DNA from: a virus
Virus record (IMG/VR): IMGVR_UViG_3300006754_000044
Span: 1-40,717 of that record
Strand: one strand, 5' to 3'
Length of the DNA: 40,717 nucleotides
In this document: positions 8,257-33,541 of the stretch, piece by piece
Layout: each line of letters starts with the position of its first letter
Numbering within the stretch: the first letter of the stretch is position 1
Notes under the pieces: model-generated
Databases searched by the model: none
Told to the model about the DNA's origin: nothing
What the model saw: only the letters and a program-made list of their open reading frames with translations
Position numbers and translations under genes: made by a program

Positions 8257-8264
8257 AGGAGGTG
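8257..8264 (+). promoter_or_regulatory. Strong ribosome binding site AGGAGGTG
   Basis: A near-perfect Shine-Dalgarno sits 6 bases before the ATG at 8271 and fixes that start over the in-frame GTG at 8262, which lies inside it. It marks the first gene of the plus-strand block as well translated. Confidence 0.85.
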
Positions 8265-8270
8265 TTGATT

Positions 8271-8843
8271 ATGAAAGATAAAACAAATGAAACAGTGGTC
8301 GTGAATAAGAGGACCATTTCGGTCATGGAACAGGACAAACATGTCTACATTGGTCGTCCGTCACGGTGGGGCAACCCGTTCTCGATTGGTCGGGACGGGA
8401 ACAGGGCAGAAGTTATCGAGAAATACAGGGTCTGGTTTTTCGAGCAGGATGAGAGATTCTTCAGGGATTTGGAAAAGTTGAGAGGCAAGTCTCTCGTTTG
8501 TTTCTGCGCCCCCCTGAGTTGTCACGGGGATGTGATTAAAGAGTTTCTCGACAATCGCGACGAGAAGGAGGTGTCGACCTGCGACTCCTGCGGCGAAGTC
8601 CTTCCGGTAGAGGAGTTCGATGACTGGTACCGTTGCCCTGACTGCTCACACTTCAACGAGCCACCGTCCTGGCAGGAGGAGGAAGTGTCACCCTGCGACT
8701 CATGCGACGAGCCTCACCAGCCAGCTGCCTGCCACTTCTGCGACGCTTCGGACCTCACGACGGCGGGCTGCGAACTCTGCGGCAAGCTCTTCCCGTATGA
8801 GGACTTAAACGACTACTCCCGTTGCCCTGCCTGCTCAAACTAA
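8271..8843 (+). CDS. DUF4326 protein with tandem zinc ribbons
   Basis: A 190-residue protein in two parts. Residues about 20-95 match the DUF4326 pattern: VYIGRPSRWGNPF near the start and LRGKSLVCFCAPLSCHGDVI at the end. DUF4326 is common in phages and its function is unknown. The second half is cysteine-rich. A ribbon CDSC...RCPDC is followed by a middle CDSC...CHFC cluster and then a near copy of the first ribbon, CELC...RCPAC, with the same spacing and with shared G-x-x-x-P-x-E-[DE] and DWYRCPDC/DYSRCPAC segments, so it arose by internal duplication. These ribbons should bind zinc and contact nucleic acid or protein. It is the first gene of the early block, which hints at an early role against the host. 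That role is inference. Confidence 0.75.
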   Translation: MKDKTNETVVVNKRTISVMEQDKHVYIGRPSRWGNPFSIGRDGNRAEVIEKYRVWFFEQDERFFRDLEKLRGKSLVCFCAPLSCHGDVIKEFLDNRDEKEVSTCDSCGEVLPVEEFDDWYRCPDCSHFNEPPSWQEEEVSPCDSCDEPHQPAACHFCDASDLTTAGCELCGKLFPYEDLNDYSRCPACSN

Positions 8844-9406: not shown

Positions 9407-9952
9407 ATGTCTAAATCAAAATCAATTCTCGAGCGCATCAAAGAGGCTGTCGCATTTGACTTGCCCGAAGATGGCTCACACTCCTGTACTCTCCACTCCA
9501 TCGAACGCTCTAGAGCCGCGACAGGCACTTGGGCAATTGAGGTTCACTGGAAGGTCGAATCCGGAACTTCTCAGGGATGCTTCATCTTCGACAAGTTTTG
9601 GGTAAACGACAAATGCCTCGGTCGCTGGACAACATTCTTGAAGTTCCTTTCCGGCGGACTCGACGAAGATGCTTACGAAAAGATTCTCAATGAGAGCCTT
9701 TCAGAGAATTTATTCCCTACAGGAATCTCTTCTCATCGCACTGATGAGCCTTCTGCCAAGCCGGGTAGTCTCTCCAACTTCTACTTCGCCTTCGTCGGTA
9801 TGCCTGCGACTATCACAGGCAAAAGGGAAAGCTACACCTTCGAGAATGGCGGCACCACCGAAAACTTCAATGTAGCCTTTGCTGGCTGGAAACTAGACGA
9901 CAAGGAGGTCGCTAAATGGCAAACCCCAGCCGAAGAAACTGTAGACGCGTAG
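9407..9952 (+). CDS. DUF669-like / SSB-like early protein
   Basis: A 181-residue protein with an alternating strand pattern typical of phage DUF669-type proteins, which are found in replication and recombination modules and are thought to bind single-stranded DNA: a strand SHSCTLHSIERSRAATGTW, then IEVHWKVESG, then G-C-F-I-F-D-K-F-W-V, then a helix GRWTTFLKFLSGG. The C-terminal third, with F-x-G-M-P-A-T-I-T-G-K, looks like a further OB-type strand pair. The ATG at 9407 was chosen over upstream in-frame starts because the translated homologous-looking part begins there and the 15-base leader shared with the previous gene ends at this ATG. Family assignment is tentative. Confidence 0.6.
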   Translation: MSKSKSILERIKEAVAFDLPEDGSHSCTLHSIERSRAATGTWAIEVHWKVESGTSQGCFIFDKFWVNDKCLGRWTTFLKFLSGGLDEDAYEKILNESLSENLFPTGISSHRTDEPSAKPGSLSNFYFAFVGMPATITGKRESYTFENGGTTENFNVAFAGWKLDDKEVAKWQTPAEETVDA

Positions 9953-10449: not shown

Positions 10450-10695
10450 ATGAACAACGACCAGTCTTCAGTGACCATTGTGTCACCAACTCAAGGGCAA
10501 GCCGTCCAGCATTTCGACCCGAACAACCCGCCAACGCTAAATCAAATTACTAGCATGCTCGGGGGTTCCTATAACCGATCGGACGCTTCCTTCTTCGCGA
10601 ACACTCCTAATGGACCAGCTCCCATCCAACCGGGTGAGACAGTCCAACCAGGACAAACGATTACCGTATCGCACGGTTTCAAAGGTGGCTGCTAA
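10450..10695 (+). CDS. Ubiquitin-like protein with Gly-Gly-Cys C-terminus
   Basis: An 81-residue protein with the size and predicted order of a beta-grasp (ubiquitin-like) fold: strand SVTIVSP, strand around AVQHF, helix TLNQITSMLGG, and a last strand QTITVSHGFKGGC. The segment G-E-T-V-Q-P-G-Q-T-I-T-V matches the 'L-x-x-G-D-x-V-x-V' loop-strand seen before the tail of ThiS/MoaD and ubiquitin-like proteins. Gly79-Gly80 is the expected conjugation site. One extra residue, Cys81, would have to be clipped, a job for the JAB peptidase encoded two genes later. E2-like and E1-like genes follow directly. A pure sulfur-carrier role is possible but would not need an E2. The ATG has no recognisable Shine-Dalgarno. 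Confidence 0.75.
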   Translation: MNNDQSSVTIVSPTQGQAVQHFDPNNPPTLNQITSMLGGSYNRSDASFFANTPNGPAPIQPGETVQPGQTITVSHGFKGGC

Positions 10696-10720
10696 GTCGC
10701 CTGACCCCGCTGAATAAGCA

Positions 10721-10737
10721 AGGCTCGGGGAGAGCCT
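10721..10737 (+). repeat. Hairpin after the ubiquitin-like gene
   Basis: AGGCTC (10721-10726), loop GGGGA, GAGCCT (10732-10737): a perfect 6-bp stem 25 bases after the ubiquitin-like stop codon. No T-run follows. It may set the 3' end or the relative level of the small substrate gene against the enzymes downstream. Confidence 0.5.
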
Positions 10738-10822
10738 AGATAGCTAGTAGCCTCAGAAATGGGGCACCCCTTTATTGGGAACTCACTTCCATTGCTAGCT
10801 TAATAATCTCCCCACCCACACC

Positions 10823-12418
10823 ATGCGACCACGACAACAGCCACCGATGAGCCAGACACCAGTCCACATTAAACCTGAGACTATCAGGAAAGGACTGACC
10901 TTCATTCCCAAGTCTGTCCTAGACACCATACGAAACGATGGACCTGACTGCCTAAGCGCTGAAGACTACAATCAATTCCGCGACCAACTACCCTATTGCC
11001 TAGGTAGTGGCTCCGTAACTACCGTAGCCAAAGTATCTCCGACAAGAGAATGGGATGAATACTTCCCCTTTATAGATGGACTAGAAGGCGACGACCATAT
11101 CTACCAGGAACTAAGACACCCCAATAACACCATCAAGTCTAACATAAATAGAGTAGACCTAAGGACAAACGGGGCTGATATTAGACCTATCGTCGTCCTC
11201 AATGAAGAGGAAAAAGAGGAGACCTATCTCCACTACAAACTCTGGTGGCCCAGAGATAACTACATAGATAGCTTCAGCTCCCTACGAATGCTGGAAAAAC
11301 TCCGCCCTCTGATGACCACCAGGCATTATGGAAAATTCAAAAAGGCAATCAACGACACAAAGGGACACTTATGCGGGCGCTTAAGAATCAGAACATGGGG
11401 AAGAGCTGATGTCTTCTTCACCGAAGGAAGAGGTGTCCCTCTCTGCTTTGGGCATCCTAACACCAACTCAGTAGGTCAGATATGCTACGGAGGAAACCCA
11501 ACACCTAGTAAAGAGCTAGAGATATACCAAACCCTGGACATACTAGAAAAGAGAGTCAACTTCCTATCCCCAATGACAGGACCCTCAGTATGGGGAGGGA
11601 CAGAAATCTGCAGGATTGATATCGCACCACATGGCTCAAGACTAGCCCCAGTATCCTTCAACCCCGACACGGGAGGCTGGCTATGGGACCTACTACTTCT
11701 ATTCGTAACCAACACAGACATACTCCAAGCAGCTTACTCCTACTCTCAAAGACGAAGAGAAGTAGAAAGCTCCTCTCGAGTATCCCATCGAGTTCTCACT
11801 CTCAACCGCCACTTCCCTAGCCCAATCAACAAGATGGGAGAGGAATACGAAGAATTTATCAACTCCCCCCCTGATGGATATAACGATAGACGAACAAAGC
11901 TACTAGAGTCCTGGCTCCACCAGAACCTAACAGCAACCCGTCCAATCAGCATCCCCTTACTATCCTCAGCAGCAAGACAAATATCGAACCCCGATACAAA
12001 CCCCGCCATAAAGCTCCTGAAACTCCTGATGACCGGAATCACCAACCCAATTCAGCCACCCTACATGTCCATGCCTCACCAACCGCATCTAGCCACACTT
12101 GGAGCTAGGCAAAATTGGATCCCAAATAACCTGGTATGGAAGATAGCCCGATCTCTAGACGGCCTACCACAGGGACACATAGAGACAGAGATACGGGACA
12201 ACGAGACCTACAGTTACTGGTCATCTCTCCTAATCCCAAAGGGAATATCCCTAAGAGATACATGGAAACATTCCCACTCACACCCTTCAGACGATTCCAT
12301 CAAAGAACGACTCCAATCCCTAGCAAATTCCTATGGCTACGACTACACAAACAACTGCAACTTCAAACTCCACGACATCTTCAGCTGCCATCGCGCCCTT
12401 ACGAACGACGGGACCTGA
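10823..12418 (+). CDS. E2-like ubiquitin-conjugating protein
   Basis: A 531-residue protein containing an exact E2 active-site signature at residues 211-221: HPNTNSVGQIC. It has His-Pro-Asn, then Gly218, Ile220 and catalytic-type Cys221, with the same His-to-Cys spacing as in canonical E2 enzymes (HPNxxxxGxIC). It is preceded by strands fitting the E2 sheet (GRLRIRTWGRADVFFTE, VPLCFG) and followed by a helix (KELEIYQTLDILEKRVNFL). E2s take the activated ubiquitin-like protein from the E1 as a thioester and pass it to a target. The protein is far longer than a minimal E2, with extra regions of about 180 residues before and 300 after that I do not recognise and that may bind targets. Its start has no Shine-Dalgarno; Met9 (10847) is an alternative start. 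Confidence 0.8.
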   Translation: MRPRQQPPMSQTPVHIKPETIRKGLTFIPKSVLDTIRNDGPDCLSAEDYNQFRDQLPYCLGSGSVTTVAKVSPTREWDEYFPFIDGLEGDDHIYQELRHPNNTIKSNINRVDLRTNGADIRPIVVLNEEEKEETYLHYKLWWPRDNYIDSFSSLRMLEKLRPLMTTRHYGKFKKAINDTKGHLCGRLRIRTWGRADVFFTEGRGVPLCFGHPNTNSVGQICYGGNPTPSKELEIYQTLDILEKRVNFLSPMTGPSVWGGTEICRIDIAPHGSRLAPVSFNPDTGGWLWDLLLLFVTNTDILQAAYSYSQRRREVESSSRVSHRVLTLNRHFPSPINKMGEEYEEFINSPPDGYNDRRTKLLESWLHQNLTATRPISIPLLSSAARQISNPDTNPAIKLLKLLMTGITNPIQPPYMSMPHQPHLATLGARQNWIPNNLVWKIARSLDGLPQGHIETEIRDNETYSYWSSLLIPKGISLRDTWKHSHSHPSDDSIKERLQSLANSYGYDYTNNCNFKLHDIFSCHRALTNDGT

Positions 12419-13169
12419 ATCACTCGCCGTAATCGTCCCGACTAGCATCCTCACCGAAATTGACGCTGTCACCAAAGCTGCCCAAAGCAAAGGATTGGGC
12501 GAATGCTCATGGCTAGGAGCCGGACACTTCGACGAAGAGATGGGAGAAGCCGTCATCTCCAGAATCTTCTGGCCAAAGCAGACGAATACAGGGTCTAGCA
12601 CTGACATGGACGAGCTATCCGTAGCAGAAGTTACAGGAGAGCTGGACCACGCTACCGACGAGAAGATTATCTGGTGGGGTCACTCCCACGGAAGTATGTC
12701 TACCTTCTACTCAGGGACAGATTGGGATACATGGGAAATCTTCACCGACGAAGGAATCCCCTTCTTCTTCGGAAGCTGCCATAACGCCAAAGCTGACAGC
12801 CCCTACCAAGTAGTCCACTTCCGCAACTTCGACTTCCCCGATGTCGACATCCTCGAATCCGACGCCGAAGAGCCAGGCGAAAAGGTAGCCGAAGCCCTCA
12901 AGCAAATGGCTAAGCCCAAGATCACCTACGCCGCCAAAAAGACGACGACCGCCACATCCTATGGCACAAGCTACGGCTATGGCTACACAACGGAGACAGA
13001 CAAGTGGGACTTAGAGCAAGACATCGCAAGCTATGTAGGCGAAGGAACTACCCGCTCAGATAAGGAAACGCGAGTGAGGGAAATCATCGACATGGCCAAG
13101 ATAGAGCGAGCTGCCATCGCTAACGACATTTACCAGACCACCCTTGGAGATTACACAGATGGCTACTAA
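12333..13169 (+). CDS. JAB/JAMM metallopeptidase (deubiquitinase-like)
   Basis: A 278-residue protein with the complete JAMM zinc site: catalytic Glu57 in GLGECSWLGAG, then H-S-H at 117-119, seven residues, Ser127, two residues, Asp130 (GHSHGSMSTFYSGTDWDTW). Such enzymes trim ubiquitin-like precursors after the Gly-Gly or remove conjugates. The likely substrate is the Gly-Gly-Cys protein encoded at 10450. The first 30 residues are Thr/Ser/Ala-rich. The C-terminal 100 residues contain a Tyr/Gly/Thr-rich linker and a charged helix of unknown role. The start lies 86 bases inside the E2 gene in another frame, and no in-frame start exists before residue 55, which would remove part of the domain. 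It overlaps the E1 gene by 11 bases. Confidence 0.9.
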   Translation: MATTTQTTATSNSTTSSAAIAPLRTTGPESLAVIVPTSILTEIDAVTKAAQSKGLGECSWLGAGHFDEEMGEAVISRIFWPKQTNTGSSTDMDELSVAEVTGELDHATDEKIIWWGHSHGSMSTFYSGTDWDTWEIFTDEGIPFFFGSCHNAKADSPYQVVHFRNFDFPDVDILESDAEEPGEKVAEALKQMAKPKITYAAKKTTTATSYGTSYGYGYTTETDKWDLEQDIASYVGEGTTRSDKETRVREIIDMAKIERAAIANDIYQTTLGDYTDGY

Positions 13170-13893
13170 TAGAGACCGACCCGATTGGGACTTCATCAAG
13201 AACATCAGACCCGACCTAAAATACCTCATCATAGGAGGAGGCTCCCTCGGAAGCGCCTTAGCTGGCTGCCTGAAGAGAGCATTCGGGAAGGATGCCGACA
13301 TCGCAATCATAGACAACGACACCTGGACGCAGAGAAATCGCTTCAATAACATCTGGCCCAAATCAAGCGGGATGAAAGCTAGCAGCGAGCAGCTCCAAAG
13401 GAGAGTCGAAGACTTCCAAGGTGAGAGCATGAAACCCTTCATCGACTGCGATGTCCTAATTACAGCGACCGATAACATCGAAAGCAGACGACTAGCCATG
13501 AACATGATTAACCCCAGAATCTGCTGCCTCGACATGAGAGCAGGAGAGCATGGAGGAGAAATCGCAATCGGCACCACCCAATTCACATCCGAGCTACTGC
13601 CCGACATAGCAGAGGAAATGACCTGCGGCTCAAAGGGCTCAATGGGACATACGATGACCATAGCAGGACTAGGATTCAGCCGACTGCTCTACGAGCTAAG
13701 CGAATGGGCGACAGCTGACGAATACATCCCGAGAAACCTGGCCTTCCAACTAGGATTCTTCGGGGAAAATCCAACCCTAATCACTCACCCTAGTAGTGAA
13801 ATTCGGTATTTCAAACCTACCGAAAGTGAGACGGCACAACCAGTTGTGACTGAATGCACATTTTTCGACTCCGCTGGAGTAACAGAAGAGTGA
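13159..13893 (+). CDS. E1-like (ThiF family) activating enzyme
   Basis: A 244-residue Rossmann-type protein of the ThiF/MoeB/E1 family, which adenylates the C-terminal glycine of a ubiquitin-like protein and then forms a thioester. Visible are the nucleotide loop G-G-G-S-L-G at 26-31, the acidic end of strand two I-I-D-N-D-T-W (50-56), an Asn-rich segment R-N-R-F-N-N where the family normally has N-x-x-R-Q, Lys73, and T-A-T-D-N at 102-106 with the conserved Asp105. Cys156 in TCGSKGSMGH sits near the usual thiol position. The zinc-binding CxxC pairs of many ThiF proteins are absent. ATG 13159 is preferred over TTG 13144 because GGAG lies nine bases upstream. It overlaps the JAB stop. Confidence 0.85.
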   Translation: MATNRDRPDWDFIKNIRPDLKYLIIGGGSLGSALAGCLKRAFGKDADIAIIDNDTWTQRNRFNNIWPKSSGMKASSEQLQRRVEDFQGESMKPFIDCDVLITATDNIESRRLAMNMINPRICCLDMRAGEHGGEIAIGTTQFTSELLPDIAEEMTCGSKGSMGHTMTIAGLGFSRLLYELSEWATADEYIPRNLAFQLGFFGENPTLITHPSSEIRYFKPTESETAQPVVTECTFFDSAGVTEE

Positions 13894-14674: not shown

Positions 14675-14956
14675 ATGCCAAAGAAAGACAAAGTAACCTA
14701 TGAAGCAGACCTCGCCACCAAGGAAATCAAGAAAATCCTAGTCAACGAAATGGCTGATCCCGAATGCTGGCCAAGATGGGCCGTCCTAATCAAGGAAGTA
14801 GGAGAAATACGGAAAATCAAAGGGACCAATTCAAAGAAAGAAGCACAAGAACATTTCCAAGCCATGGCTAACCTACTAAAATCGTCGGGCTGCACTGTTT
14901 ACCTCGCCGACTGTAGCCGCCCCAGAAAACCTCTAATCAAACTAAAGCAGCCATGA
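14675..14956 (+). CDS. Hypothetical early protein
   Basis: A 93-residue basic, lysine-rich helical protein with two cysteines near the end (SSGCTVYLADC). No family recognised. It overlaps the primase start by four bases (ATGA), so it belongs to the replication transcript and may be translationally coupled to the primase. Confidence 0.6.
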   Translation: MPKKDKVTYEADLATKEIKKILVNEMADPECWPRWAVLIKEVGEIRKIKGTNSKKEAQEHFQAMANLLKSSGCTVYLADCSRPRKPLIKLKQP

Positions 14957-16551
14957 GCAAATTCATCCCAGATCTAGCCTTCGCCGAATACCTAGCGGAG
15001 AGAGGCTACTGGATATTTCCCTGCTACAATAGACAGAAGGGAGCCCGTCAAGTATTGGGCAGACCATGGTCATGGCACCTAGAAAACAGTAACCCTGAGA
15101 CACTAGCTACAACGCTGACCACTACCCCAGCGACCGGCTCATGTCTCTGCCCAAACCCAACAGATGAAATCTCCCTTCTAATCCTTGATTTTGATTTAGA
15201 CCCTAATGAGAACTACACCTATGAAGTATTATGGGAGCGCATCTCAGCTGGGCTACCTATACCAGAAGGAATGGGAGTCTCGCAATCAATCTCAGGAGGC
15301 TTCCATCTATGGTTCAAGCTACCTGAAGGAACCAAGTTACCAGACAAATTCGACCTAGGCTCAGGACTATCGGGAGAGATCAGAGCCAGTAATAGACCTA
15401 AGACCTTCATCATGCTCCCTGGGTCAATCGCACTTAATAAGGAGAGCAAAGTCAAGCGCTACACGATAGCCCTAGACATTAACATTGATAGCCTACCTGA
15501 GCCTCCCTCATCCCTACTAGCTAGACTATCCTCAAGACCAAGTCAATCAACCCAAGAGGAAGTGAACTCTGAGGGAATCCCCACGGAAATAGCTCACCTC
15601 CTAGCTGTCCTAGAAGTCACTCAACTAGAAGAAGGAGAGAGGAACCTACAGATATCACGCATCGGGCAGATTATGGGAAGAATCGTCCCATCATCAAAGC
15701 TAAGCCTCAGTATCCTCGATGCCACATGGTCAATCCTAGGCCCCAAACTAGGGAAGGGATTTGATCAGAAGGAGTTCCTCAAAGCCATCAACTCAGGGTT
15801 CAGGACAGGAAGGACTAACGCTAACAAATTCAATAAAAGAGAGAAGAACCCTACCGCTACAGATGTCGAAGTAGAATCCGAGACAGTATTCGGGGGGAGA
15901 CTCTGGATGAAGAAGCTCATAGACTCCACAGCAAAGACAGTAGGATTCATTATTGGAGTAGGGGGATCTGAAAAGAGACCCGACGAAGCTGAAATTAGTA
16001 TTCAACTAGACACCTTCAACATCGAAGAGATACTGCCCTACCTAGCTCAAGCAGCCAAGGTAAACCCTGATGTAGTAGTGACTTCCCCACTCTTCGTCCA
16101 GCCAGGATGGAAGAGAGTCCTTGAATTTATCCTAAAAAGAAGGTCGACAATAGAACCACTGGGACTACCACCAGAAGACATCTTCCTAGAAAAGCTGAAT
16201 TCCTGGGCCAGAAGCTCCGCCTCTGATCTACGCCTAATCGAGAGATGGTCAGAGAAGAGGACCTTCGACACCTCAATGCCCTTCTTCGTCCACCCGCCAG
16301 ACGGCGACGATGTGGCCTTTGTATTACCAGAAAGGGCATATGAAAGATTACTTAGACAGCTAGGAGATATAGCTCAAGCAAGAAAATTAGCTAAAAAGTT
16401 TCTCCTAAAGAAAAACCTAATAGGCAGAGCATCGGGATGGACAATAGGACTAGACCAACTCGACGACGGGACCAGAAATAACCTACGACTCGCATACGAG
16501 AAACGAATTCAATCACGAATAGATGGAAACAGAACGCCTTCAGCTTCTTGA
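14953..16551 (+). CDS. PrimPol-type primase/polymerase
   Basis: A 532-residue protein. Its first 200 residues show the archaeo-eukaryotic primase (bifunctional primase/polymerase) pattern: acidic metal pair D-F-D at 79-81 in LLILDFDLDP, the S-G-G-x-H motif at 114-118 (ISGGFHLWFKLP), and G-E-I-R-A-S-N-R-P-K-T-F-I-M-L-P-G-S, the third motif with the 'vapPS' type end. Such enzymes make primers for replication. The C-terminal 300 residues have no helicase signature and are unrecognised, but the separate helicase gene follows with a 29-base overlap. The start overlaps the upstream stop by four bases. The region is rich in CTA leucine codons. Confidence 0.82.
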   Translation: MSKFIPDLAFAEYLAERGYWIFPCYNRQKGARQVLGRPWSWHLENSNPETLATTLTTTPATGSCLCPNPTDEISLLILDFDLDPNENYTYEVLWERISAGLPIPEGMGVSQSISGGFHLWFKLPEGTKLPDKFDLGSGLSGEIRASNRPKTFIMLPGSIALNKESKVKRYTIALDINIDSLPEPPSSLLARLSSRPSQSTQEEVNSEGIPTEIAHLLAVLEVTQLEEGERNLQISRIGQIMGRIVPSSKLSLSILDATWSILGPKLGKGFDQKEFLKAINSGFRTGRTNANKFNKREKNPTATDVEVESETVFGGRLWMKKLIDSTAKTVGFIIGVGGSEKRPDEAEISIQLDTFNIEEILPYLAQAAKVNPDVVVTSPLFVQPGWKRVLEFILKRRSTIEPLGLPPEDIFLEKLNSWARSSASDLRLIERWSEKRTFDTSMPFFVHPPDGDDVAFVLPERAYERLLRQLGDIAQARKLAKKFLLKKNLIGRASGWTIGLDQLDDGTRNNLRLAYEKRIQSRIDGNRTPSAS

Positions 16552-17692
16552 CGAAGCCCCAGGTCAATACAAGAACCTGACAGCAATAGACGGGCCGCCA
16601 GGAACAGGGAAAACTACGGCAATCCTAGCTACCGCAAGAGAATCAAAAGGAAGCGTAGCCGTCATCACCTACACAAACGCAGCAGCAGATGTAGTAAAGG
16701 ATAGATTAGATGGGCTATCAATAGCTGCAGGGACAATCTACAAGTTAAGCTGGAACCCAATCAAGACATTCACTAACACTAAGCAAGGACGAGGGCCGAA
16801 GAGCTCAGGCCCTTGGCTAAAGAGAAAGATTAAAGACTCTTGGGACACTGCCCTAACTCAATATAGAGAGACAGCCCCTAGTCTTATGCCTCCCTCACAG
16901 ACAATGGAGGCTGCCCGAATGCTACACGCATGGGAAGCAGGCGAAATCCCTATAGACCTAAGTTCACTCCCTACCAAGGGAGCGATTAAGTATCCCCTGG
17001 CCCTAGCTAAATGGCTAGAGATGGGAGCGCCAGCTCAAGAGGAAGATCTATTCGACCTAATCCTAATCGATGAAGCTCAAGATATGTCTTCTCTAGAGTT
17101 ACGCGCAACACTAGCACTACTAGCCAAAGGAGGTCAGGCAATAGCCTACATGGACCCAGGCCAAGCTATCTTCAGCTACGCGAAGGGCATAGAAGATAAC
17201 TCCCTAGCCCCAGCATGGGCCAAAGCAGGCAAAAGATATCGAATGGTTGGAGGATTCCGAGTGGGAAATCCGGTGGCCTCCCTAGCCTCCAAAGTCCTGA
17301 AGCCCTTCTTCGATAGACCTGCTGAATCCTTCGCCTCAGGAGAGACTGAGGTCAACACATGGGAGCCAGACAAAGGAGCCCCAAATAAGGGGCTAGTCCT
17401 AGGCTACTCAAGAGCTCATGTCGCAAACTGGCTAGAGAATTGGGACCTAGAAAACAGAGGCGTAGTTCCCGGGCAAGGAAACCCCGACAAAGAACTGGTC
17501 CTCAGCACCATCCACTCAGCAAAAGGAGCTGAAGCAGATGATGTCTACCTCCTACCCTGGTCAAAGGCAGCACTCTACAGGCTGGAATCCTTTGACCCAA
17601 GAGAACTACGAACTTCGTATGTCGCTCTCACCCGACCAAAGAACACACTCAACTTACCTTGGAACATCCAAAGCCGAATAGAATACTTCTAA
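16523..17692 (+). CDS. UvrD/Rep-like SF1 DNA helicase
   Basis: A compact 389-residue helicase with all main SF1A motifs in order: I G-P-P-G-T-G-K-T-T (24-32), Ia ITYTNAAAD, II LILIDEAQDM, III Y-M-D-P-G-Q-A-I, IV VGGFRVGNP, V LSTIHSAKGAEADDVYLLPW and VI TSYVALTRPKNTL. It should unwind DNA with 3'-5' polarity, using ATP, at the phage fork or in recombination. It is shorter than UvrD, lacking large 1B/2B insertions, and comparable in size to phage Dda-type helicases. It overlaps the primase end and its stop codon overlaps the next start (TAATG). Confidence 0.92.
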   Translation: METERLQLLDEAPGQYKNLTAIDGPPGTGKTTAILATARESKGSVAVITYTNAAADVVKDRLDGLSIAAGTIYKLSWNPIKTFTNTKQGRGPKSSGPWLKRKIKDSWDTALTQYRETAPSLMPPSQTMEAARMLHAWEAGEIPIDLSSLPTKGAIKYPLALAKWLEMGAPAQEEDLFDLILIDEAQDMSSLELRATLALLAKGGQAIAYMDPGQAIFSYAKGIEDNSLAPAWAKAGKRYRMVGGFRVGNPVASLASKVLKPFFDRPAESFASGETEVNTWEPDKGAPNKGLVLGYSRAHVANWLENWDLENRGVVPGQGNPDKELVLSTIHSAKGAEADDVYLLPWSKAALYRLESFDPRELRTSYVALTRPKNTLNLPWNIQSRIEYF

Positions 17693-17937
17693 TGAACTGC
17701 CCAGTATGTGACACCCCGCTAAGAGCTCAATCAGTAGAAAGAGGCTGCCCTGAATGTGGAGCCAACTCATCTACAATCATGGTTGAAGCACTGACCCAAT
17801 TAAGGTCGCTGCGCGTGAGGTGCGCAGCGCTTCTTAAGGCCAGTCAACAGATGGCAGGAAAACTAGATGTCTACGATGCAATTAATGAAGCAGAGCAAGC
17901 CGCTTACGATCAATGGATAGAAGATGAAAATAGCTGA
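17692..17937 (+). CDS. Small zinc-ribbon protein
   Basis: An 81-residue protein beginning MNCPVCDTPL, with a second C-P-E-C pair about 15 residues on, forming a four-cysteine zinc ribbon, followed by a helical acidic half. The start at 17692 overlaps the helicase stop (TAATG) and places the cysteines at the N-terminus; the open frame extends slightly upstream but without a better start. It is followed by the polymerase gene with a 14-base overlap, so it may be a polymerase or helicase accessory factor. This is inference. Confidence 0.7.
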   Translation: MNCPVCDTPLRAQSVERGCPECGANSSTIMVEALTQLRSLRVRCAALLKASQQMAGKLDVYDAINEAEQAAYDQWIEDENS

Positions 17938-19630
17938 ACACCATACCGCACCCTACCTTAAGCTAACAGACCACGAACTAAGCTCAGCCCTAGATTACTG
18001 GAAAGACTACGCCTGGATCCTAGATACAGAGACCTCTGGATTAGGGGTAATAGGACCAGACAGTCCAGACAGGGCCTACTATGTAGGCATGGTTCCTGAC
18101 GCAGAAGCTGTCCCGATAGTCATGAACAGGGACCAATTTGACCGAATCGTCAGGCCAAAGCTATCTGAACTAGCCCTTATCGTGGGGCACAACCTTAGAT
18201 TTGACCTTCATGCCCTTGATATTACTGATGCCGATATCCAGATGCACGACACCTCTGTCTGGAGCTACTTCCACTCGACAACATCAAGGAAAAGCCTGGA
18301 CTTCCTAGCCGCAGCTAGAGGATGGAAAAAGATAGCTACTCCAGACGAGCTAAAGAATGGGGGAATCCTGAGAATGGAAGAGAAAGTCCTCTACCACTAC
18401 CTCGCTGATGACTGCATCATAACTCAAAGGCTATTCAAGGAGCAAATGAAAAGAAAGGAAGTGGACCAGCTCACCTTAGACTTCGACCTAGAGAGGACTA
18501 TAGCTAAGATGGAGAATAGAGGGGTCCACCTTAATATTAAGAAGCTACTCAAGGTAAGAGAAAGAGCTACCGAAGAATCCGACATACTAGAATACTCCCT
18601 TAGGTCCATGGGATACCGGGGGATGCTGACCTCACCTAAGCAGCTTGGAGCTTGGCTAGAGGAGAATGGAAGAAAGCTACCTAGGACGCCCAAAGGAAGT
18701 ATATCGACAAGCAAAGAAGTCCTCACCTTCCTAGCCGACAACGGGGACACCTTCGCAGGGAAACTCCTCGAATGGAGGAAGATGATAAAGCTAATCCAGG
18801 CCTTCTTGAGGCCCCTGCCTGACATGGCTAGAGATGGCGTCATCTATGCTAATGTGAACTCAACGAGGACATCGACAGGACGATTCTCCTACAGCTCCCC
18901 TAACCTACAGCAGATACCCAAAGGAAGGAACTCTACCTTAGGGAAACAGATTAGGGAATGCCTGACACACGAAGGAGGAGTATCTGTAGCCGACTATTCC
19001 CAGGTAGAATTAAGAGTAGCCGCAGCCCTATCCGAAGAAGCTGTCCTATTAGATGCCTTTGCTAGTGGAGGAGATCCTCACGCAGAGACAGCTGCAGCAG
19101 TCTTCAAGAAGAAGGCCGAAGAAGTGACCGACATTGAGAGGCACGCAGCTAAGACGGTGAACTTTGGAATCCTCTTCGGAGCAGGACCTAAGAGACTAGC
19201 GACAGAACTAAAGATTCCTCTGACAGAAGCTCGAGGTATCTTCGACAACTATAAAAGAGGGCTACCGAGCCTAGCTAAATGGTGCGACACACACTGGGCC
19301 TTCTTCGAGAAGAGTCAGGTATCTAATACCATTAGCGGAAGAACCAGAGTATTCGCTGGCTATGAGGACACTCGGCCTGGGCTATCTGTCCTAGTCCAAG
19401 GGACTGCTGCTGAACTAATGAGGCACGCTCTAATAGGAGCGGAAGAAGCTGGCCTTGAGCCTATCCTTTCAATCCATGACGAGATCGTCTGCAAAGGAGC
19501 GGGCAAACACAAAGAGCTTTCAGAAATCATGCAACTTTCAGCAGAAAAAGCTTTCCCTAAGATACTAGATACTGTATGCTTTCCTGCAGATGGAGCCTCA
19601 GGTCCCTCCTGGGGAGAACTAGATGAGTGA
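17924..19630 (+). CDS. polA: Family A DNA polymerase with 3'-5' exonuclease
   Basis: A 568-residue replicative polymerase. The proofreading domain is intact: Exo I D34-T-E36, Exo II H-N-L-R-F-D, and Exo III Y-L-A-D-D of the DEDDy type. The polymerase domain has motif A S-V-A-D-Y-S-Q-V-E-L-R, motif B R-H-A-A-K-T-V-N-F-G-I-L-F-G and motif C S-I-H-D-E-I-V. In E. coli Pol I numbering, position 762 is Phe as in many virulent phages. Position 766, normally Tyr, is Phe here. No 5'-3' nuclease domain is present, as usual for phage enzymes. The gene overlaps both neighbours slightly and is the core of the replication module. Confidence 0.95.
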   Translation: MKIAEHHTAPYLKLTDHELSSALDYWKDYAWILDTETSGLGVIGPDSPDRAYYVGMVPDAEAVPIVMNRDQFDRIVRPKLSELALIVGHNLRFDLHALDITDADIQMHDTSVWSYFHSTTSRKSLDFLAAARGWKKIATPDELKNGGILRMEEKVLYHYLADDCIITQRLFKEQMKRKEVDQLTLDFDLERTIAKMENRGVHLNIKKLLKVRERATEESDILEYSLRSMGYRGMLTSPKQLGAWLEENGRKLPRTPKGSISTSKEVLTFLADNGDTFAGKLLEWRKMIKLIQAFLRPLPDMARDGVIYANVNSTRTSTGRFSYSSPNLQQIPKGRNSTLGKQIRECLTHEGGVSVADYSQVELRVAAALSEEAVLLDAFASGGDPHAETAAAVFKKKAEEVTDIERHAAKTVNFGILFGAGPKRLATELKIPLTEARGIFDNYKRGLPSLAKWCDTHWAFFEKSQVSNTISGRTRVFAGYEDTRPGLSVLVQGTAAELMRHALIGAEEAGLEPILSIHDEIVCKGAGKHKELSEIMQLSAEKAFPKILDTVCFPADGASGPSWGELDE

Positions 19631-19853
19631 CATCCCGATACCCGAAAAAATACGCATACGGATTAACCAGCTTCTCGACGACATGGGAGAAGCTAACCCG
19701 AGAGAAAGAGTGTTCATGGCTCAAGCAGTCAAGGAACTCTACCTCTCACTTAACCTCGAAGGTAACTCGTCCTCAACCAACTGGTTGGCAGAGTTAATGA
19801 ATGAGGAAGAAACCGGTCCGAAAGGACCCCAACTACTAACTGATAATGACTGA
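19623..19853 (+). CDS. Small hypothetical protein
   Basis: A 76-residue acidic helical protein starting MSDIPIPEKIRIRINQ. Its ATG overlaps the polymerase end and has a GGGAG site within the polymerase gene's last codons. Its stop overlaps the next gene. No family recognised. Position suggests a replication accessory protein. Confidence 0.6.
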   Translation: MSDIPIPEKIRIRINQLLDDMGEANPRERVFMAQAVKELYLSLNLEGNSSSTNWLAELMNEEETGPKGPQLLTDND

Positions 19854-20259
19854 ATTCGATCCATCTGCAATCTTGCAGTACCGACCCACCGAGGAAGAGG
19901 CTTCTGGCCGCTCTCCTCTCCCACCAGAAGGAAATTACCCTAACTGCGAACTGGTCGACCTCCAGGTCTTCCCTCCTTCCGACCGCTACCCAAAGCCCGG
20001 AGTCCTCGCTGTTCTGAAAGCAACCTTTACCTGCCCTGATTACGACGGAGAGTTAGTGAAACGCATTAACTTCAAAAAGCCTCTCTCTCGTAGATCGACA
20101 CTTTGGAAGCTAATGAACGCTGTCTGGGGAGATACCATGAATGACCACACCCCCGAAGAACTTTCGGGAATCAAGGTGAACATCTTCATTACCCACGAAT
20201 GGACTGATGGAGCTGACTCTGTCAAGTACGCAGACTACAAATTCACTAATGTTGGATAA
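19846..20259 (+). CDS. Single-strand-binding-like protein
   Basis: A 137-residue protein with a layout common to phage SSB-like and DUF669-type proteins: LPPEGNYPNCELVDLQV, a strand GVLAVLKATFTCPDYDG, then INFKKPLSRRSTLWKLMNAVWG (the 'K-S-x-L-x-K-L' helix), and a closing LSGIKVNIFITHEW sheet. It sits directly between the polymerase and the Cas4-like nuclease, as expected for a DNA-binding partner. The assignment is from pattern and context only. Confidence 0.6.
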   Translation: MTEFDPSAILQYRPTEEEASGRSPLPPEGNYPNCELVDLQVFPPSDRYPKPGVLAVLKATFTCPDYDGELVKRINFKKPLSRRSTLWKLMNAVWGDTMNDHTPEELSGIKVNIFITHEWTDGADSVKYADYKFTNVG

Positions 20260-20266
20260 ACCAATA

Positions 20267-20286
20267 GGGGGGACTTCGGTCCCCCC
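20267..20286 (+). repeat. UUCG-capped GC hairpin
   Basis: GGGGGGAC, loop TTCG, GTCCCCCC: a perfect 8-bp stem directly between the SSB-like stop and the nuclease ATG (20294). No T-run follows. It may stabilise the 3' end of the upstream message or set the start of the next gene; the latter has no Shine-Dalgarno. Confidence 0.7.
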
Positions 20287-20293
20287 ACCCACC

Positions 20294-21205
20294 ATGCAAG
20301 ACTACACACCTAAAAATCCCTTACCTAAACCAGGTCGACCCTACCCAGATTGGAGTCGATTCCTTATAGCAGCCTGGGAGCACGGCATCCAGAATATGGA
20401 CCCGAACATCCTGAAGGTAGCTTCCAGTCGAATCTCCGATCAGCTCTTTCGGTCACTCTGCGAAGAGCAAGACATGACCCCTAAGATTCGCCCGAGTTTT
20501 GGACTAACCTGCCCAGCTCAAGCCTACTTTGTGAGGACAGGTGCTAACCGAACTCCGATGCCCCCCACTATCAAAGCTACCTTTGTGATGGGGCACTTCG
20601 CGCACGAACTCTGCTACGCTACCCTCCTAAGTGCTCTCCCTAAGGAGATTAATCTAGACGAGGAGCTCGAGGTAGATACAGGATTCCCTGATGACTGCAA
20701 TCAAAGAGGAACCTGCGACTTCGTAATCAGCAAAGAAGGAGATACCACTCATGAATGGGTAGACGAATCCGCGCCTAAATACATTCTAGGCGACTTCAAA
20801 ACTCAAACAGGATTCTCCTTCAGGTCGCACAAGAAATCAGACTTCACCTCTCAAGGAGTAGATGCCTGGGGATATATAGCCCAGCTCGCTGTCTACGCCA
20901 ACTCCCCCTCCATGCAGGAAAAGTACCCTAAAATTGAGGAAAGCGGAGCACTCCTAGTAGGGGTGAACAAAGAGTCCCCTCAGATGGGGATTGCGCCCAG
21001 GCTGATATCCCCTAAGGTATTAGCCGAAGCGAAGAAGCGACTAGACATTGTCCTAGGAACTACGGAATACCCAGGACCATGGCTCATGGACACCTTCGGG
21101 CAAAAGGAGACGGCCTTCTATTGCGGAGCCTCAGGTAGGAAGGGATACTGCGGATTCGTAGAAGAATGTCAGAAGAAGAGAAAGAAAGACACCTACAAAA
21201 TTTGA
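20294..21205 (+). CDS. Cas4/RecB-like PD-(D/E)XK nuclease with Fe-S type cysteines
   Basis: A 303-residue nuclease. The core shows a His-containing helix (MGHFAHELCY), the acidic turn T-G-F-P-D-D-C-N-Q-R-G-T-C-D-F-V-I, the active-site strand Y-I-L-G-D-F-K-T-Q-T-G (Asp...x-Lys) and the Gln motif helix A-Q-L-A-V-Y. One cysteine at 73 (LTCPAQAYF) and three near the C-terminus (277, 286, 292) form the four-cysteine layout of Cas4 and AddB, which hold an iron-sulfur cluster. It would act as an exonuclease in recombination or end processing. ATG 20294 is chosen over 20249 because the latter lies across the hairpin and codes a low-complexity extension. Confidence 0.8.
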   Translation: MQDYTPKNPLPKPGRPYPDWSRFLIAAWEHGIQNMDPNILKVASSRISDQLFRSLCEEQDMTPKIRPSFGLTCPAQAYFVRTGANRTPMPPTIKATFVMGHFAHELCYATLLSALPKEINLDEELEVDTGFPDDCNQRGTCDFVISKEGDTTHEWVDESAPKYILGDFKTQTGFSFRSHKKSDFTSQGVDAWGYIAQLAVYANSPSMQEKYPKIEESGALLVGVNKESPQMGIAPRLISPKVLAEAKKRLDIVLGTTEYPGPWLMDTFGQKETAFYCGASGRKGYCGFVEECQKKRKKDTYKI

Positions 21206-23506: not shown

Positions 23507-23766
23507 TTGTTTAGCCTCTCATCTATTCGGATGAGGAGATCGTGTACCTTATGGAGGAGCTTATCTTTGTCGTCCTTCTTTGCGAGACGAAGATAGGCGA
23601 ACACCTCCTTCAGAATTAGGACGGCGACGCCTGCTCCCACACTCAACTCGAGTAAGGATGAGGATTCGCCTCCTTGAACGGCGGCTCTCACTAAGGCAGC
23701 TGAGGCAAAAGCCCCTCCTGCCAGTGATCCTCCGTAAAGAGTCTTTACTATTGTATAGTTCATCAC
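23503..23766 (-). CDS. Holin-like membrane protein
   Basis: An 87-residue protein with two hydrophobic segments, about residues 14-31 (SLAGGAFASAALVRAAV) and 40-58 (LSVGAGVAVLILKEVFAYL), and a highly charged C-terminal helix with repeated Lys-Asp (KKDDKDKLLHKVHDLLIRIDE). This is the plan of class II holins, which open the inner membrane at lysis. It lies between the last virion gene and the spanin candidate, overlapping both by four bases. Confidence 0.65.
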   Translation of the reverse strand: MMNYTIVKTLYGGSLAGGAFASAALVRAAVQGGESSSLLELSVGAGVAVLILKEVFAYLRLAKKDDKDKLLHKVHDLLIRIDERLNK

Positions 23767-26700
23767 TGATGTTTCTTTAGTTTAGTTATCTCACGCTGAA
23801 AATGGCTTCGCATATGCTTTAGCTCGACATTAAGCGCATCCGTATTCTCCGGAGTAGGATCTCGCTCAGCCGCTCTCCTGAACGCAAACTCGTTTCTAAG
23901 TTGGAGCCTCCTCAGGTATTCAACTCTCTTTTCCGCTTCCAGCATTTTACCACCAGCCGCCTTGAATGCCCCAAAGAAACCAGCGGAAACAAAATCCTCA
24001 TAGGACTGGTCATCCTCTAAGTTATTTCCCAGCTCCTCGAACCCCGAATATCTCGCCGTGTCCTTTGCTATTCGCTGGATGATAGCTGTCTGCTCGAGCC
24101 CTTCTACTAAGCCGTTCATGATGCCCTTATCTATAGAGGTAGAGACAGGGTTAAGCATGACGTTGAGTTGCAGAAAGCCCGGCGCCTCTATCTTCCTGCC
24201 TGCTGATACAGACCTAATCTCATCGGGAAGTTTGCCTGGGGAATCTAATACAGGAAGCATGTCATAGAACATGCCGATAGCCTGAAGTCCCTCAGTTGCA
24301 GGAATTAAGCGCCCTAAGTTAACGGACAGTTCGTTCCAGTGAGCATGAGGTCGTCCATAGACGAAGTCGGTAGATACCTGGCTATCTCCTACTTCCATAC
24401 CTCTATCTAGCGCCAGCATACTATGAAGTCCCGTAGAGAACCTAGCAGGGTTCTTAGTGAAGTTGTCGTATGTATTAGACATAATCTTAGAGCCAAAAGT
24501 CCAGAAAGAGTTGAGCCTCTTCATCACATTCTGAGATGTCGGAGATAGGTCACCGTAATCAAAGAACGTCCCTAATACGTACTTCTTCATGGAATTCTCT
24601 GGGGAGAAGCCCATAGCTAGTCCTGTATTGTATCCCCAAACGCGGGCGAAAATCTCCGACTGCTGACCAAACTCGCCGAGGACATCCATGAACTTCTCGG
24701 AGCCTCCTTCTCCTTCCATAATCATATCCCGCAGAACTTTTGTCTCTCTCCTGATATCGTCTACCCCCTCTCCTACCATGGTATTGAACCCTCCGCCATG
24801 GAGGAACGTCTCCCAATACTCCTTTTGGGTAAGTTGGATGTCACCCACTTGGATAACGGTGTCGGCAAATACTCTTCTCTCTGCGTTTAACTTAGCTTCC
24901 CGGAAAGGGGCTAAACCTCTCCTACCTAGGAGAGCACCTGATAGAGCTCCTCCCGCCATAAATTCTGGGCTATCTGCCCCCGCCAAAGAGTAGCCTAGTG
25001 CGGCCCCTAATCCTGCTGTCTTAGGCCGGGCACCTATGGAGCCCCCTGTCAGGCCACCTAGGGCGGCCCCCATGATCCCCTGGTCATCTTCTGCTTGCCA
25101 CGCGCCTAAGCCCGCACCTGCAGCCGAACCAAGTAATGTCCTCTTAGCCTGACTCCCTGTGAGGCCACTATGGATGATCCCCATCTGGGTTCCGGGGAGT
25201 AGTTTATCTATTAATTGGGCCTTCTCGTCATACCCAACAGGGTTCTTCCCTATCAAACGTATGGTAGTCATGAGGCCTCGGGAAATGGCAGGTAAGTTAG
25301 CTCCATTAGCGTAAAGCATGGGAGCAGCCCCTAATGTATTGTGGACATGAAAGGCGAATTGAGTCGAAGTCAGCCCCATCTTCATAAGCCTATGGACACT
25401 GTCAAATAGGTGCAGCTCTGTTCCAGCCTGTCTTTCCATCTGCCTGACATTCTCAAGCAAACTAGATACGTGTCTGTTCTCACCAGCAATTACTTGGATA
25501 CGGGCATCAGTAGGATCATGACCAAGTTTCCGTAGCCTTTCCGATTCCGCCTTCCTAGCTCTAAAGTGGCTAACCATATCTTCGCTACTCATGGTTGGCT
25601 CAAGGAAGTGGTGGACACCTGCTTCGCTAGACGCGTTACCTCTGAGGTGTGTTCTTGTGAATGCCTGAGAAGGGGTTGGGCCGATCCCGGCAGACAGCAT
25701 CGTCATATCCTTACCCGTGACAGCCAAAGGGATCTTGACGAGTTTTCCCGTCCTATTATCTCTAATAAGAGCTATCCGACGAGGAAGATCAATGGTATCT
25801 CTGACTACCTTATGTGGATTCGTGGGTATCTTCCATCCAGCTCCTGCCGCAATGTTACCTGCTTCGGTAGCATCCCCTTCAATCAAGGCGCGAGCTTTGG
25901 CGTGACTAAGAAAATTGAGGACTGACTTTTTATCCTTCCCTCTCAGCGCTGGGTCGGCTTTGAATTGGTCGACCAAGTTACTTACCATCTCCTCCACTTT
26001 CTCTTGGCCTGTCGGAGATCCGCTTAGAAAGCTCGGTCTATCGTTCGGGGCTCGCTTCCCTCTGTTAAGGACGTGGCCCACTTCGTGCCACGCTACTATT
26101 TCGTGGAACTTCTTCGCTCCCCCATTTTCTTTGAGGAATTCGTGGAAACCTTTGAGGTCACCTCCTGTAACTCGGGACATACTGACGTCATACAAACCCT
26201 GCACCAGAACTCTTTTGGCCTCCTCGGCCTTCTTCTTAGTGAACTGACCTGTGACGCTGGATAGGTATTCGTTAGCGTAAGTCTCATAGTGTTTCCATAC
26301 CTCCTTCTGGTCTACTCCTGGTTTGAATGCTGCCTTCAGGAACTTGGCATAGATAGGATTAGTCGCAGATCCTGCCTCGATCGCCTTCAGTCTTTTGGGT
26401 ATTCTATCAAACCAGGTCTTGCTGGCCATCGAGTCGATATTAATGTTGACTACACCGTCATTGAAGCTGGAATAGCTGCCCTTCCCTCTCTTAGTAGTGA
26501 TTTTGACTTCCTTGACCCCTACCTCCTCCATAAGACGGGCCCTCATGCGGGCTGTCGTATCACCTATTCCGGGTGCTGGATAACTCGTAGGGGAGGGGTG
26601 TAACCTTGATTTCTGGGCCTTTCTTACTTCATCTGCTAGTCTGCCAAACTCCGCTTTGGTCATGGGATCCCCTAAGCCCACTGTCTCTATAGAAGACATA

Positions 26701-29369: not shown

Positions 29370-32300
29370 TGTTCTATCCTTCGACTTTCGACGGCACCTG
29401 GGGGGAGCCCTCCCCAGCCCAGCAGCCCCCATCTTCTGCCGGGCCGCTTAGGTGCCGTTACTGTGCCGGGCAAGTCCGGGGTCCCCTCTCTATTCAGGCG
29501 GCCCTGGATTGAGTCATCCAGCATATTCTCAGGAATCATGTTATTCCATTCGTCGATTGTCGATCTGTTGGGCATCGGTGTCGTCGAAGCCGCTATCCGG
29601 GCCAAAAACTCCCCTAGTGTCCACTGGTCTCCGAAGCTGTCGCCATAGGTCGAAGGCTGCAGCCTAAACACTCCATTAGACACGAACTCTTTCAGGACGT
29701 TATGCATGTCAGCATCCATTGCTATCCCCATACTATTCCATAATCCTCCATTTGCTAGGAGTTTTAGGCAGTCCTCGTTGGTCGTAGTAGAGTTAGCGAA
29801 CAGCCTGCCTCCCATGGCAAACATGGCGGCTTCATTCTCCTCGTTACGCTCAGCAAATGTTTCCCTCTTCCATTTTCTGAAGTCAGCTAGTGTCACTCTA
29901 GTCTTTACATCATCACGTAAATTATTATATTCCTCGTCGAAGAGTCCTGCGTTGACGGCTGCGTCAGCGATTGTCTCTACTAGGCCTAGGTAGGAGCTTT
30001 TGGAGACCGATCTAGGCATGTCTTCAGATGACTCCCAGACATCCTTACCCCCCATTTCGATGCTGGACGTGAAGAAGGATGCAAGATCTGGGTTACTGGC
30101 TATAGCGGCTATCGCATTTTGGACCTTCATATTCTCTGAATTTGGGTCTAAGCCGAAAGCTTCTGCGATAGCTTCTTTCCACTTTATAGCTGTGGGGTCA
30201 AATCCCTCGGTGCCCCAAAAGCCTGGACTTCTCCTACCCCCTCCACCTGCAGTTCCCGTAATCCACAATGTGGTAACGCCCCTATTGATCCCTCGGATTG
30301 TGGCATCATCTTTCCACGCTATACTCTCGTCTTCGTATATTTCATTCTCTAATATCGTTCTTGTGTCTGAAGCATCTAGAGCCCTATCTCTGCCTAATTG
30401 CAGGGATCTTGCCCCAAATATAGCATGGGATTCTGAGATGTTTTCTCTGTTCCTTTTCCACGAAGTGCCTGCTCCCTGAGAAAGGCTGTTTCTCAGGTCC
30501 TGAGGGGTTAAGGTCGCCTCCATCTTGTTAAGGTTAGGCACATTGCCAAAAGCGAGACTATCCCCGGTGTCTTCATCCTTGAGGGAGAGGGGAGCCATCT
30601 TCTGATCACTTAAGTAACTTTGCGCCGTAGCTTCGCGTTCTCCTAGGCTATTTCTCAAGCTCTCATCTATATACCGTTGGCCCTTTTTTATCATATCGGT
30701 AAACGACTCCAGTTCTAATGGGTTAAGCTCTGCCCTCCGCAGGAGCGTGCTTAATTTCCCTGCCACCTCTAGCATATCATCGGGATCCCTCTCTTCTAGG
30801 GTAGTACCTATGAAGTCCTCCATACTTTGTAGCAATCCTCTATCGTAAGCAGACTTAGCGATACCCCAGTTTGCGGTACCTGCGGCCTCTAATGATACGC
30901 TTGGGGGTACAGGGAACCCGAACATTGCTGCAGCTAAGGAGCCGAATTCTTCGCGTCCTCCCATCTCGCTTTCGCGCTTTTTGCTGTTCTCCTCCAGCGT
31001 CTTCAGCTGGCTTTCCCAGGCGATTGTCTGCTCTCGGCTGACTGCCTTAGTGCCCTCTGTCAAGAGGGAGGGATCCCTTTCACTCTCTGCTTGGAGGACT
31101 GCTGAGGCTGGGCGCCGCCCACTAACCCCCATAGCATCCACCATAGTTTGGTACAACTTAGTACCCTCTCCCCCTGGTAAATTCACGAGGCGATCCAGTA
31201 TCGCGGGAGCCACTTCCTGAGTCGCTGTTATGCTGGACTGGGCTGCATTGATCCTATCAGAGAACACCTCCTTCTCCTCAGGGGTCATGGCCTCTATAAT
31301 ATCCTGTGCTTTACCCATATCGCCACTCGCCAAGGCCCCCTCAGCTGCGATTATGTTCCTTTCTCCCTCCACATTCGCTTTATTGACCATTAGCCGATTG
31401 TTGAGGTGATCGATAGCCTTGGTCCTTGCTTTGTTTCCATTTATCATTCCGGATGTGTCGAAGCTATATATTGCTCCATAAAAGGCATCTAGTTGCTCCT
31501 GAGTCGCGGGATCGGATGATTTCCAAACCCAATTCCCCTTCTTAACGTCAAATTGCTGATTCAGCGACCCATACTGAAATGAGTCACCTATAGATGTCTC
31601 TATCTGGCCCCGCAGCTGCTCGAACTCTGCGCTATCTTTAGCGTTACTTTGTATTAGGGCGTTGGCAGCCCCAGCTATCATTGCCCTTGTCGACGAGTCG
31701 TAGCCCCCGCTTGCTATCTCTTCATATGAGAGATGACTGAGAGAGGTCCTAGATAACTGGTTGATCCCCTCGTCGCCTAACAGGGCTTCTGTGTTCTCCC
31801 AGCCCTGTAAATTGCCCAGGTCAGCCTCGTGGAAGGCCTCTAGATAGCTTCCTGCCCTTTCCTGGAAGGTCTGCTGGGTAGCTTTCCGTGAGAGCTGACT
31901 TAATCTTTCTTTAGGGGAAAGGTCTTCTGATATTCCAAAGGTATCAGCCAACCTCATCATGTCTGCCACAGGGAGGGCTTTCAACTGTTCCCTCATAGCC
32001 TTGTCCCTATCCAGTTCGCCAGCAACCAGGGATAGGTCCTCCTCGGCCTGCGCCAAGAGGGCGGGAGCTATGTCGCCCTCTGCTTGGAGGACTCCTCCCC
32101 ATTTATCTAACACTCTCCGTTGCTCCTGGGTCAGATCCTCCCACTTTTCGAGTCCCTCTTGGACGATGCCCCTCGAGAAACCTTGGGAAGCTTTGTTGGC
32201 TCTTAATATACTGCCCTCAACCCTAGTATTCTTAATGTCAGCCCACGCTTCTTTATATTCAGCGTAAGTGTCGTAGTCTCCTCTAGCCACTCCCTTGAGT

Positions 32301-33232: not shown

Positions 33233-33541
33233 CTAATACTCCAATACTACGATGATCTCGTCATCTGATGTCTTTGACCTAAGCTTTATTTCTGTCGTAG
33301 CGGCTGTAACCAGCTCAGCTTCCCCTTGAATTCCCGACCTGACCCGCTTAGGTAAACGGCCAAGAGGATGTGGATTGGTGACAGTTACTTCTGCGCCCTC
33401 GGCGGAGCTCCGGTATCTGACTACACGACCCTGGTCTCTCCAGGTAGAGCCGAATCTAGGTAGGCCATTACTATCCAAAGATAGCCCACCGAAAGTTGAT
33501 CCGATTCCCTTAAATCTAGCTACGAATGAGGGAGAGGTCAT
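33233..33541 (-). CDS. Small beta-rich structural protein
   Basis: A 102-residue basic protein with strand-like repeats (VVRYRSSAEGAEVTVTNPHP, AELVTAATTEIKLRSK). No signal peptide or membrane helix. It lies between the giant tail protein and the gp14-like gene, with a four-base ATGA overlap upstream. I do not recognise the family; a tail or head-tail component is likely. Confidence 0.55.
   Translation of the reverse strand: MTSPSFVARFKGIGSTFGGLSLDSNGLPRFGSTWRDQGRVVRYRSSAEGAEVTVTNPHPLGRLPKRVRSGIQGEAELVTAATTEIKLRSKTSDDEIIVVLEY

Follow-up and report, generated by a model that had tools for sequence, protein, structure and literature searches.

The virus record IMGVR_UViG_3300006754_000044, whose 40,717 bases were analysed in full and are referred to as the window in the following, carries four genes on its plus strand, at positions 10450-13893, that appear to form a ubiquitin-like conjugation cassette. 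In this order, they encode a ubiquitin-like modifier (Ubl), an E2-like conjugating enzyme, a JAB/JAMM metallopeptidase (JAB) and an E1/ThiF-like adenylating enzyme. The E2 gene shares 86 nucleotides (nt) with the JAB gene, which in turn shares 11 nt with the E1 gene, given an E1 start at ATG 13159. All four are contained in the list of open reading frames (ORFs) of the window, at the places and in the order that an earlier note on this DNA had given, and the sequence tests described below support its view of a complete Ubl pathway, from activation through transfer to removal, within the replication half of a phage genome. The window also encodes a terminase (PHROG match with E 8e-48) and, according to library scans, a primase-polymerase, a UvrD helicase and a family A DNA polymerase; judged by these genes, the record is clearly a phage genome.

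Matches in common family libraries are insufficient on their own to carry the claim of such a cassette. For the window proteins, Pfam yields ThiF with E 4e-4 and Prok-JAB with E 0.08, no match for the Ubl and no relevant one for the E2; PHROGs has no match for any of the four cassette proteins, and the matches in NCBIfam and PADLOC are weak at best. Likewise, pattern searches of the viral_contigs set with the JAB, E2 and E1 of the window gave no match, and neither did a window-specific JAMM pattern. The relatives discussed in the following were found by searching DNA with a degenerate version of the JAMM motif, which matched at least 120 viral contigs and thereby placed the cassette in many other phages, as the reading of the earlier note had demanded. 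Most of these JAB genes are flanked by a short gene whose product ends in GG plus 0-4 residues, a gene for a protein of 300-800 amino acids (aa), often with HP...C.G, and a ThiF-like gene of about 210-290 aa. When part of the loci served to build profiles and these were applied to the remaining, non-seed loci with enough flank, the JAB was accompanied by an E1 in 71 of 71 cases, by an E2 in 36 of 41 and by a Ubl in 27 of 32, among the matches listed. The order Ubl, E2, JAB, E1 is found in 63 of the 66 four-gene loci (again among the matches listed), and the E2-JAB and JAB-E1 gene pairs of the relatives typically abut or overlap. A variant order, E2-E1-JAB instead of E2-JAB-E1, was observed in a few contigs (L030, L121 and L119). 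Two relatives used as queries matched nothing in plasmids, and the ORF list of a Heimdallarchaeal match (L127) includes the JAB and lacks Ubl, E2 and E1.

The Ubl gene (10450-10695, plus strand) encodes 81 aa with the C-terminus FKGGC, and thus combines the two features of ubiquitin-like modifiers, a beta-grasp fold and a C-terminal GG. The fold, on which the earlier note had staked its reading, is borne out by an AlphaFold (AF2) model with the topology beta-beta-alpha-beta-beta-beta and a pLDDT of 74. The Foldseek and VIA-align matches of this model are ubiquitin-like folds; since beta-grasp domains with other roles (RBD, TGS) are numerous among them, they speak for the fold and for nothing beyond it. 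In the PDB, the family profile matches SAMP2 (E 9e-7) and MoaD (E 1e-4). The GG is invariant among 31 Ubl sequences and is followed by K, C, R, Q, I or other residues, and by none in 4 of the 31. The sole lysine of the window Ubl, K78, adjoins the diglycine, so that this protein probably forms single tags rather than lysine-linked chains. Between the Ubl and E2 genes lies a spacer with a predicted stem-loop (10696-10822, plus strand); the predicted fold of 10693-10822 (-42.8 kcal/mol, z -2.3) is stabler than most shuffles, and the relatives, too, have a gap between the two genes, with a median length of roughly 110 nt. The stem-loop might favour the production of more Ubl than E2.

The E2-like protein (10823-12418, plus strand; 531 aa) has long extensions at both its N- and its C-terminus and carries its putative catalytic cysteine, Cys221, in the segment HPNTNSVGQICYGG. 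At the sequence level, its HPNTNSVGQIC is the active-site motif of eukaryotic E2s at identical spacing, as a comparison with HPNINSQGAIC of PDB entry 2ayv illustrates, and it is this HPN...C site at canonical spacing that speaks for membership in the E2 (UBC) superfamily. Pro212, Cys221 and Gly223 are invariant over 29 cores; Cys221 is thereby shared with 28 divergent relatives. With an E limit of 10, the family profile matches 137 PDB sequences (best E 0.0011); every one of the 60 listed is an E2 enzyme, and the alignment places HP...G.IC on the active site of eukaryotic E2s. A fold search started from a model of the E2 core was meaningless at the pLDDT of that model and was discarded.

The JAB protein (12333-13169, plus strand; 278 aa) has the E...HxH...S..D zinc site of JAMM/MPN+ metallopeptidases, formed by E57, H117 and H119 (in H117-S-H119), S127 and D130. 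These five residues and N151 are invariant in 30 sequences, where the pattern used to find the relatives fixed H, H, S, T and D, and left E57 and N151 free. The family profile matches Rpn11 in the PDB with E 8e-13.

The E1 ORF (13144-13893, plus strand) opens at TTG 13144 and would yield 249 aa, whose numbering is used here for residues; ATG 13159 is the likelier start because a GGAG lies upstream, and gives a protein of 244 aa (13159-13893). With its glycine-rich nucleotide loop and the catalytic residues Asp110 and Arg115, the protein belongs to the E1/ThiF superfamily, in line with the Pfam match. G31, G33, G36, D57, D59, N65, D110, R115, D130, R132 and C161 are invariant in 27 sequences, and in the PDB the family profile matches UBA6 and UBA5 (both about 2e-19) as well as ThiF (2e-17). 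Given its conservation, Cys161 is a candidate for the catalytic, thioester-forming cysteine.

Likely versions of the cassette are found in isolated phages. A tblastn search with the E1 of a relative returned 84 phage records, in the main from crAss-like phages of Bacteroides and from phages of Flavobacterium psychrophilum, and one with the JAB of crAss001 returned 74. In crAss001, which infects Bacteroides intestinalis, gp76 (E1) and gp77 (JAB) match the profiles with 3e-63 and 2e-47, both being among the seed sequences; DAC15 (host B. thetaiotaomicron) and Fpv3 (one of the Fpv phages of F. psychrophilum) are non-seed and match the E1 profile with 9e-51 and 9e-49 and the JAB profile with 5e-20 and 1e-19, respectively. 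The expected E2 and Ubl positions in crAss001 are occupied by gp78, which retains C.G, and gp79 (E 0.06 and 0.008), and the Ubl profile matches in DAC15 with E 2e-4. The Ubl-like N-termini of crAss001, DAC15 and Fpv3 have KSGG or KSGA followed by a long tail; such tails would require cutting, which fits a trimming protease. By sequence, these phages thus clearly encode E1 and JAB, and probably also E2 and Ubl. Their cassette genes (L133 1283-5690, L134 1595-5606 and L135 971-5148) are currently labelled as thiamine biosynthesis protein or hypothetical, since Pfam, PHROGs, NCBIfam and PADLOC barely recognize such genes, and their annotation needs correction to E1 and JAB, with the E2 and Ubl marked as probable. 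In a 2021 survey of crAss phages, ubiquitin, ThiF and JAB are absent from the main text (PMC7886860).

The cassette recurrently adjoins replication and recombination genes, especially those for annealing proteins of the Sak4 or Erf type. In the window, it is flanked upstream by a gene for a probable single-stranded DNA-binding protein (9407-9952, plus strand; phrog_378, E 0.0015) and followed by a replication module with the primase-polymerase, the UvrD helicase, PolA and a Cas4-like exonuclease (14953-21205, plus strand; library scans). Across 48 loci, the two genes after E1 encode 77 proteins, of which 20 are Sak4-like and 8 Erf-like, two unrelated families of annealing proteins; one such gene per genome of about 60 genes would lead us to expect it in about 3% of two-gene windows, which is a rough estimate and not a computed control. 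A primase-helicase is found farther downstream, and the crAss001 set has a primase upstream and UDG, a resolvase and an exonuclease downstream.

Several known systems resemble this cassette. The bacterial BilABCD system consists of a Ubl, an E2, a JAB/JAMM protease and an E1, named A to D in this order, in which the JAB trims the Ubl (PMC11354881). The earlier note had drawn this parallel, and it holds for the four activities and for the gene order; it fails for membership, as the Ubl, E2 and E1 each differ. While BilA has two Ubl domains, the Bil E2 has a CEHH motif with a histidine after the cysteine, and the large Bil E1 comprises an inactive and an active adenylation domain and a Cys domain (PMC11354881), the window Ubl is a single domain of 81 aa, its E2 has HPN before Cys221 and no conserved histidine after it, and its E1 is a single ThiF-type domain. 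Furthermore, the cassette is carried by phages beside replication genes. In PRTRC (ParB-related, ThiF-related cassette) loci of plasmids and integrative elements, the likeness lies in weak matches of the relatives' E1 to PRTRC_ThiF and JAB to PRTRC_A, and in three of the 44 proteins upstream of cassette loci, which match ParB-like families. However, the window JAB scores 12.6 bits against an NCBIfam cut-off of 101.8, and the window E1 is not listed for PRTRC_ThiF, for which the best E1 of a relative reaches 53.9 of 144.75 bits. The uncharacterised operons 6d of Iyer et al. (2006) likewise combine Ubl, JAB, E1 and E2, but their E2s are without the classical histidine and have one after the cysteine instead (PMC1779556), whereas the window E2 carries the classical HPN before it. 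As the defining features of Bil, PRTRC and 6d are absent, we file the cassette under none of them; by analogy, it probably works similarly to systems of these types. More distant are TAPI-TAPK of the phages Lambda and T1, where a Ubl-like domain and a JAB occur in the tail-assembly module without E1 or E2 (PMC1779556), unlike the full set in the replication module of the window. Finally, a bacterial assembly of Candidatus Obscuribacter (L124, 93-6281) encodes two E2s, a JAB and an E1 of the phage families (E 1e-10, 4e-7, 1e-30 and 5e-44), and differs in that the set is followed by a 757-aa ClpA/C-like unfoldase, recognized by eye; no Ubl gene was seen in the stretch examined. The unfoldase hints at Ubl-linked proteolysis, and the locus could be chromosomal or part of a prophage. 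The open-licence literature searched contained no account of phage cassettes of this kind, though an earlier mention may exist elsewhere.

Taken together, the four proteins very probably constitute a working system for conjugation and deconjugation. By analogy with the enzyme families, the E1 would adenylate the C-terminal glycine of the Ubl and hand the Ubl on to the E2 in thioester linkage. The E2 would then attach the Ubl to a target with no need for a separate E3, and would select the substrate through its long extensions. The JAB would cut the extra cysteine from the window Ubl and, more generally, take the tag off targets. The earlier note had assigned precursor trimming to it, and this suits the window Ubl with its extra cysteine, but it is not general: 4 of the 31 Ubls already end at GG, so that tag removal is the likelier constant role. 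As for the targets, the note had offered the tagging of host proteins, the protection of phage proteins and interference with a host Bil-type system; gene context points instead to DNA replication and recombination. Phage proteins such as the single-stranded DNA annealing protein, the single-stranded DNA-binding protein and the helicase may be the ones tagged, in a SUMO-like regulation, a proposal that we consider plausible but that falls a little short of being probable. The statement as a whole, a phage-owned system of reversible protein tagging directed at phage replication and recombination proteins, is put forward tentatively.

Several points weigh against it. The system is known here from its genes, and a gene neighbourhood indicates co-expression at most and never the target; moreover, the context loci are partly related, which inflates the count of annealing proteins given above, and the events are not independent. 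The AlphaFold model of the E2 core is of low confidence (pLDDT 52), and as it failed, the E2 fold rests on the motif and on a profile with a best E of only 0.001. For the fold around Cys221 that the earlier note had called for, the profile matches to E2s of the PDB speak in its favour. In crAss-type phages, matches are weak both for the E2 (E 0.05-0.2) and for the Ubl (E 2e-4 to 0.16). The catalytic role of Cys161, lastly, is inferred, because the PDB profile alignment stops short of this residue.

Among the other explanations, counter-defence or host takeover fares best, though we regard it as unlikely: the cassette would tag host proteins, or would saturate or undo a Ubl-based defence of the host such as Bil or type II CBASS. 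Its gene order equals A to D of BilABCD (PMC11354881), E1-E2 defence models of PADLOC match the window E1 weakly (E 7e-4), and a complete enzyme set would permit interference with host tagging. For this purpose, however, a JAB or a decoy alone would suffice, and a conserved full set with its own Ubl and E2, located beside two unrelated kinds of recombination genes in many phages, is atypical of scattered anti-defence genes; nor were Bil-type features found in the alignments of the cassette E2s and E1s. Much less probable is a sulfur carrier pathway, in which the Ubl would act as a ThiS/MoaD-like donor for the thiolation of tRNA, DNA or a cofactor, and the JAB as in CysO-type pathways. The Ubl profile does match MoaD, the E1 profile matches ThiF/MoeB, and the crAss001 E1 is annotated as a thiamine biosynthesis protein; yet an E2 with an invariant active-site cysteine adjoins these genes, the paired CxxC motifs that characterize ThiF/MoeB occur in none of the 27 E1s, and no sulfur-transfer enzyme was seen among the window proteins scanned. 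Equally improbable is competition between phages, where the virion proteins of rival or superinfecting phages would receive the tag, in the way that Bil tags tails: the activities are the same and phages that carry defences against other phages are known in general, but the cassette lies within the replication module rather than in an accessory locus, and no lysogeny gene was recognized in the library scans made of the window.

Some further features of the genome deserve mention. A second assembly (G001) is 99.6-100% identical to the window over the stretches compared and links base 40717 to base 1 via 1014 bp absent from the window; since it joins the two ends, the genome is circular or circularly permuted and about 41.7 kb in size. 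G001 does not cover the cassette, which therefore rests on one assembly. The 1014-bp stretch (L137 496-1509) lies inside a minus-strand frame of about 383 residues that, by eye only, has the look of a major capsid protein. Also on the minus strand, the window encodes two very large proteins of 1889 and 1959 aa (23763-29432 and 33538-39417), for which Pfam has no match. Upstream of the cassette, at 8262-8843, lies a gene for a DUF4326 protein with C-terminal, zinc-ribbon-like cysteine pairs. The window gave no Rfam match, and no tRNA was found.

What is known of Ubl conjugation in prokaryotes comes mainly from anti-phage defence and uncharacterised operons of mobile elements. Complete cassettes that recur in phage replication modules would put this pathway on the side of the virus, and would give phages a new reason to modify proteins. 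Even more tentatively than for the window itself, we propose that many phages from several lineages, among them crAss-like phages of the human gut, may run a SUMO-like system of their own, with a eukaryote-type E2 site and distinct from bacterial defence, that regulates the recombination and replication of phage DNA. As likely versions are present in phages of culturable hosts, this role is directly testable.

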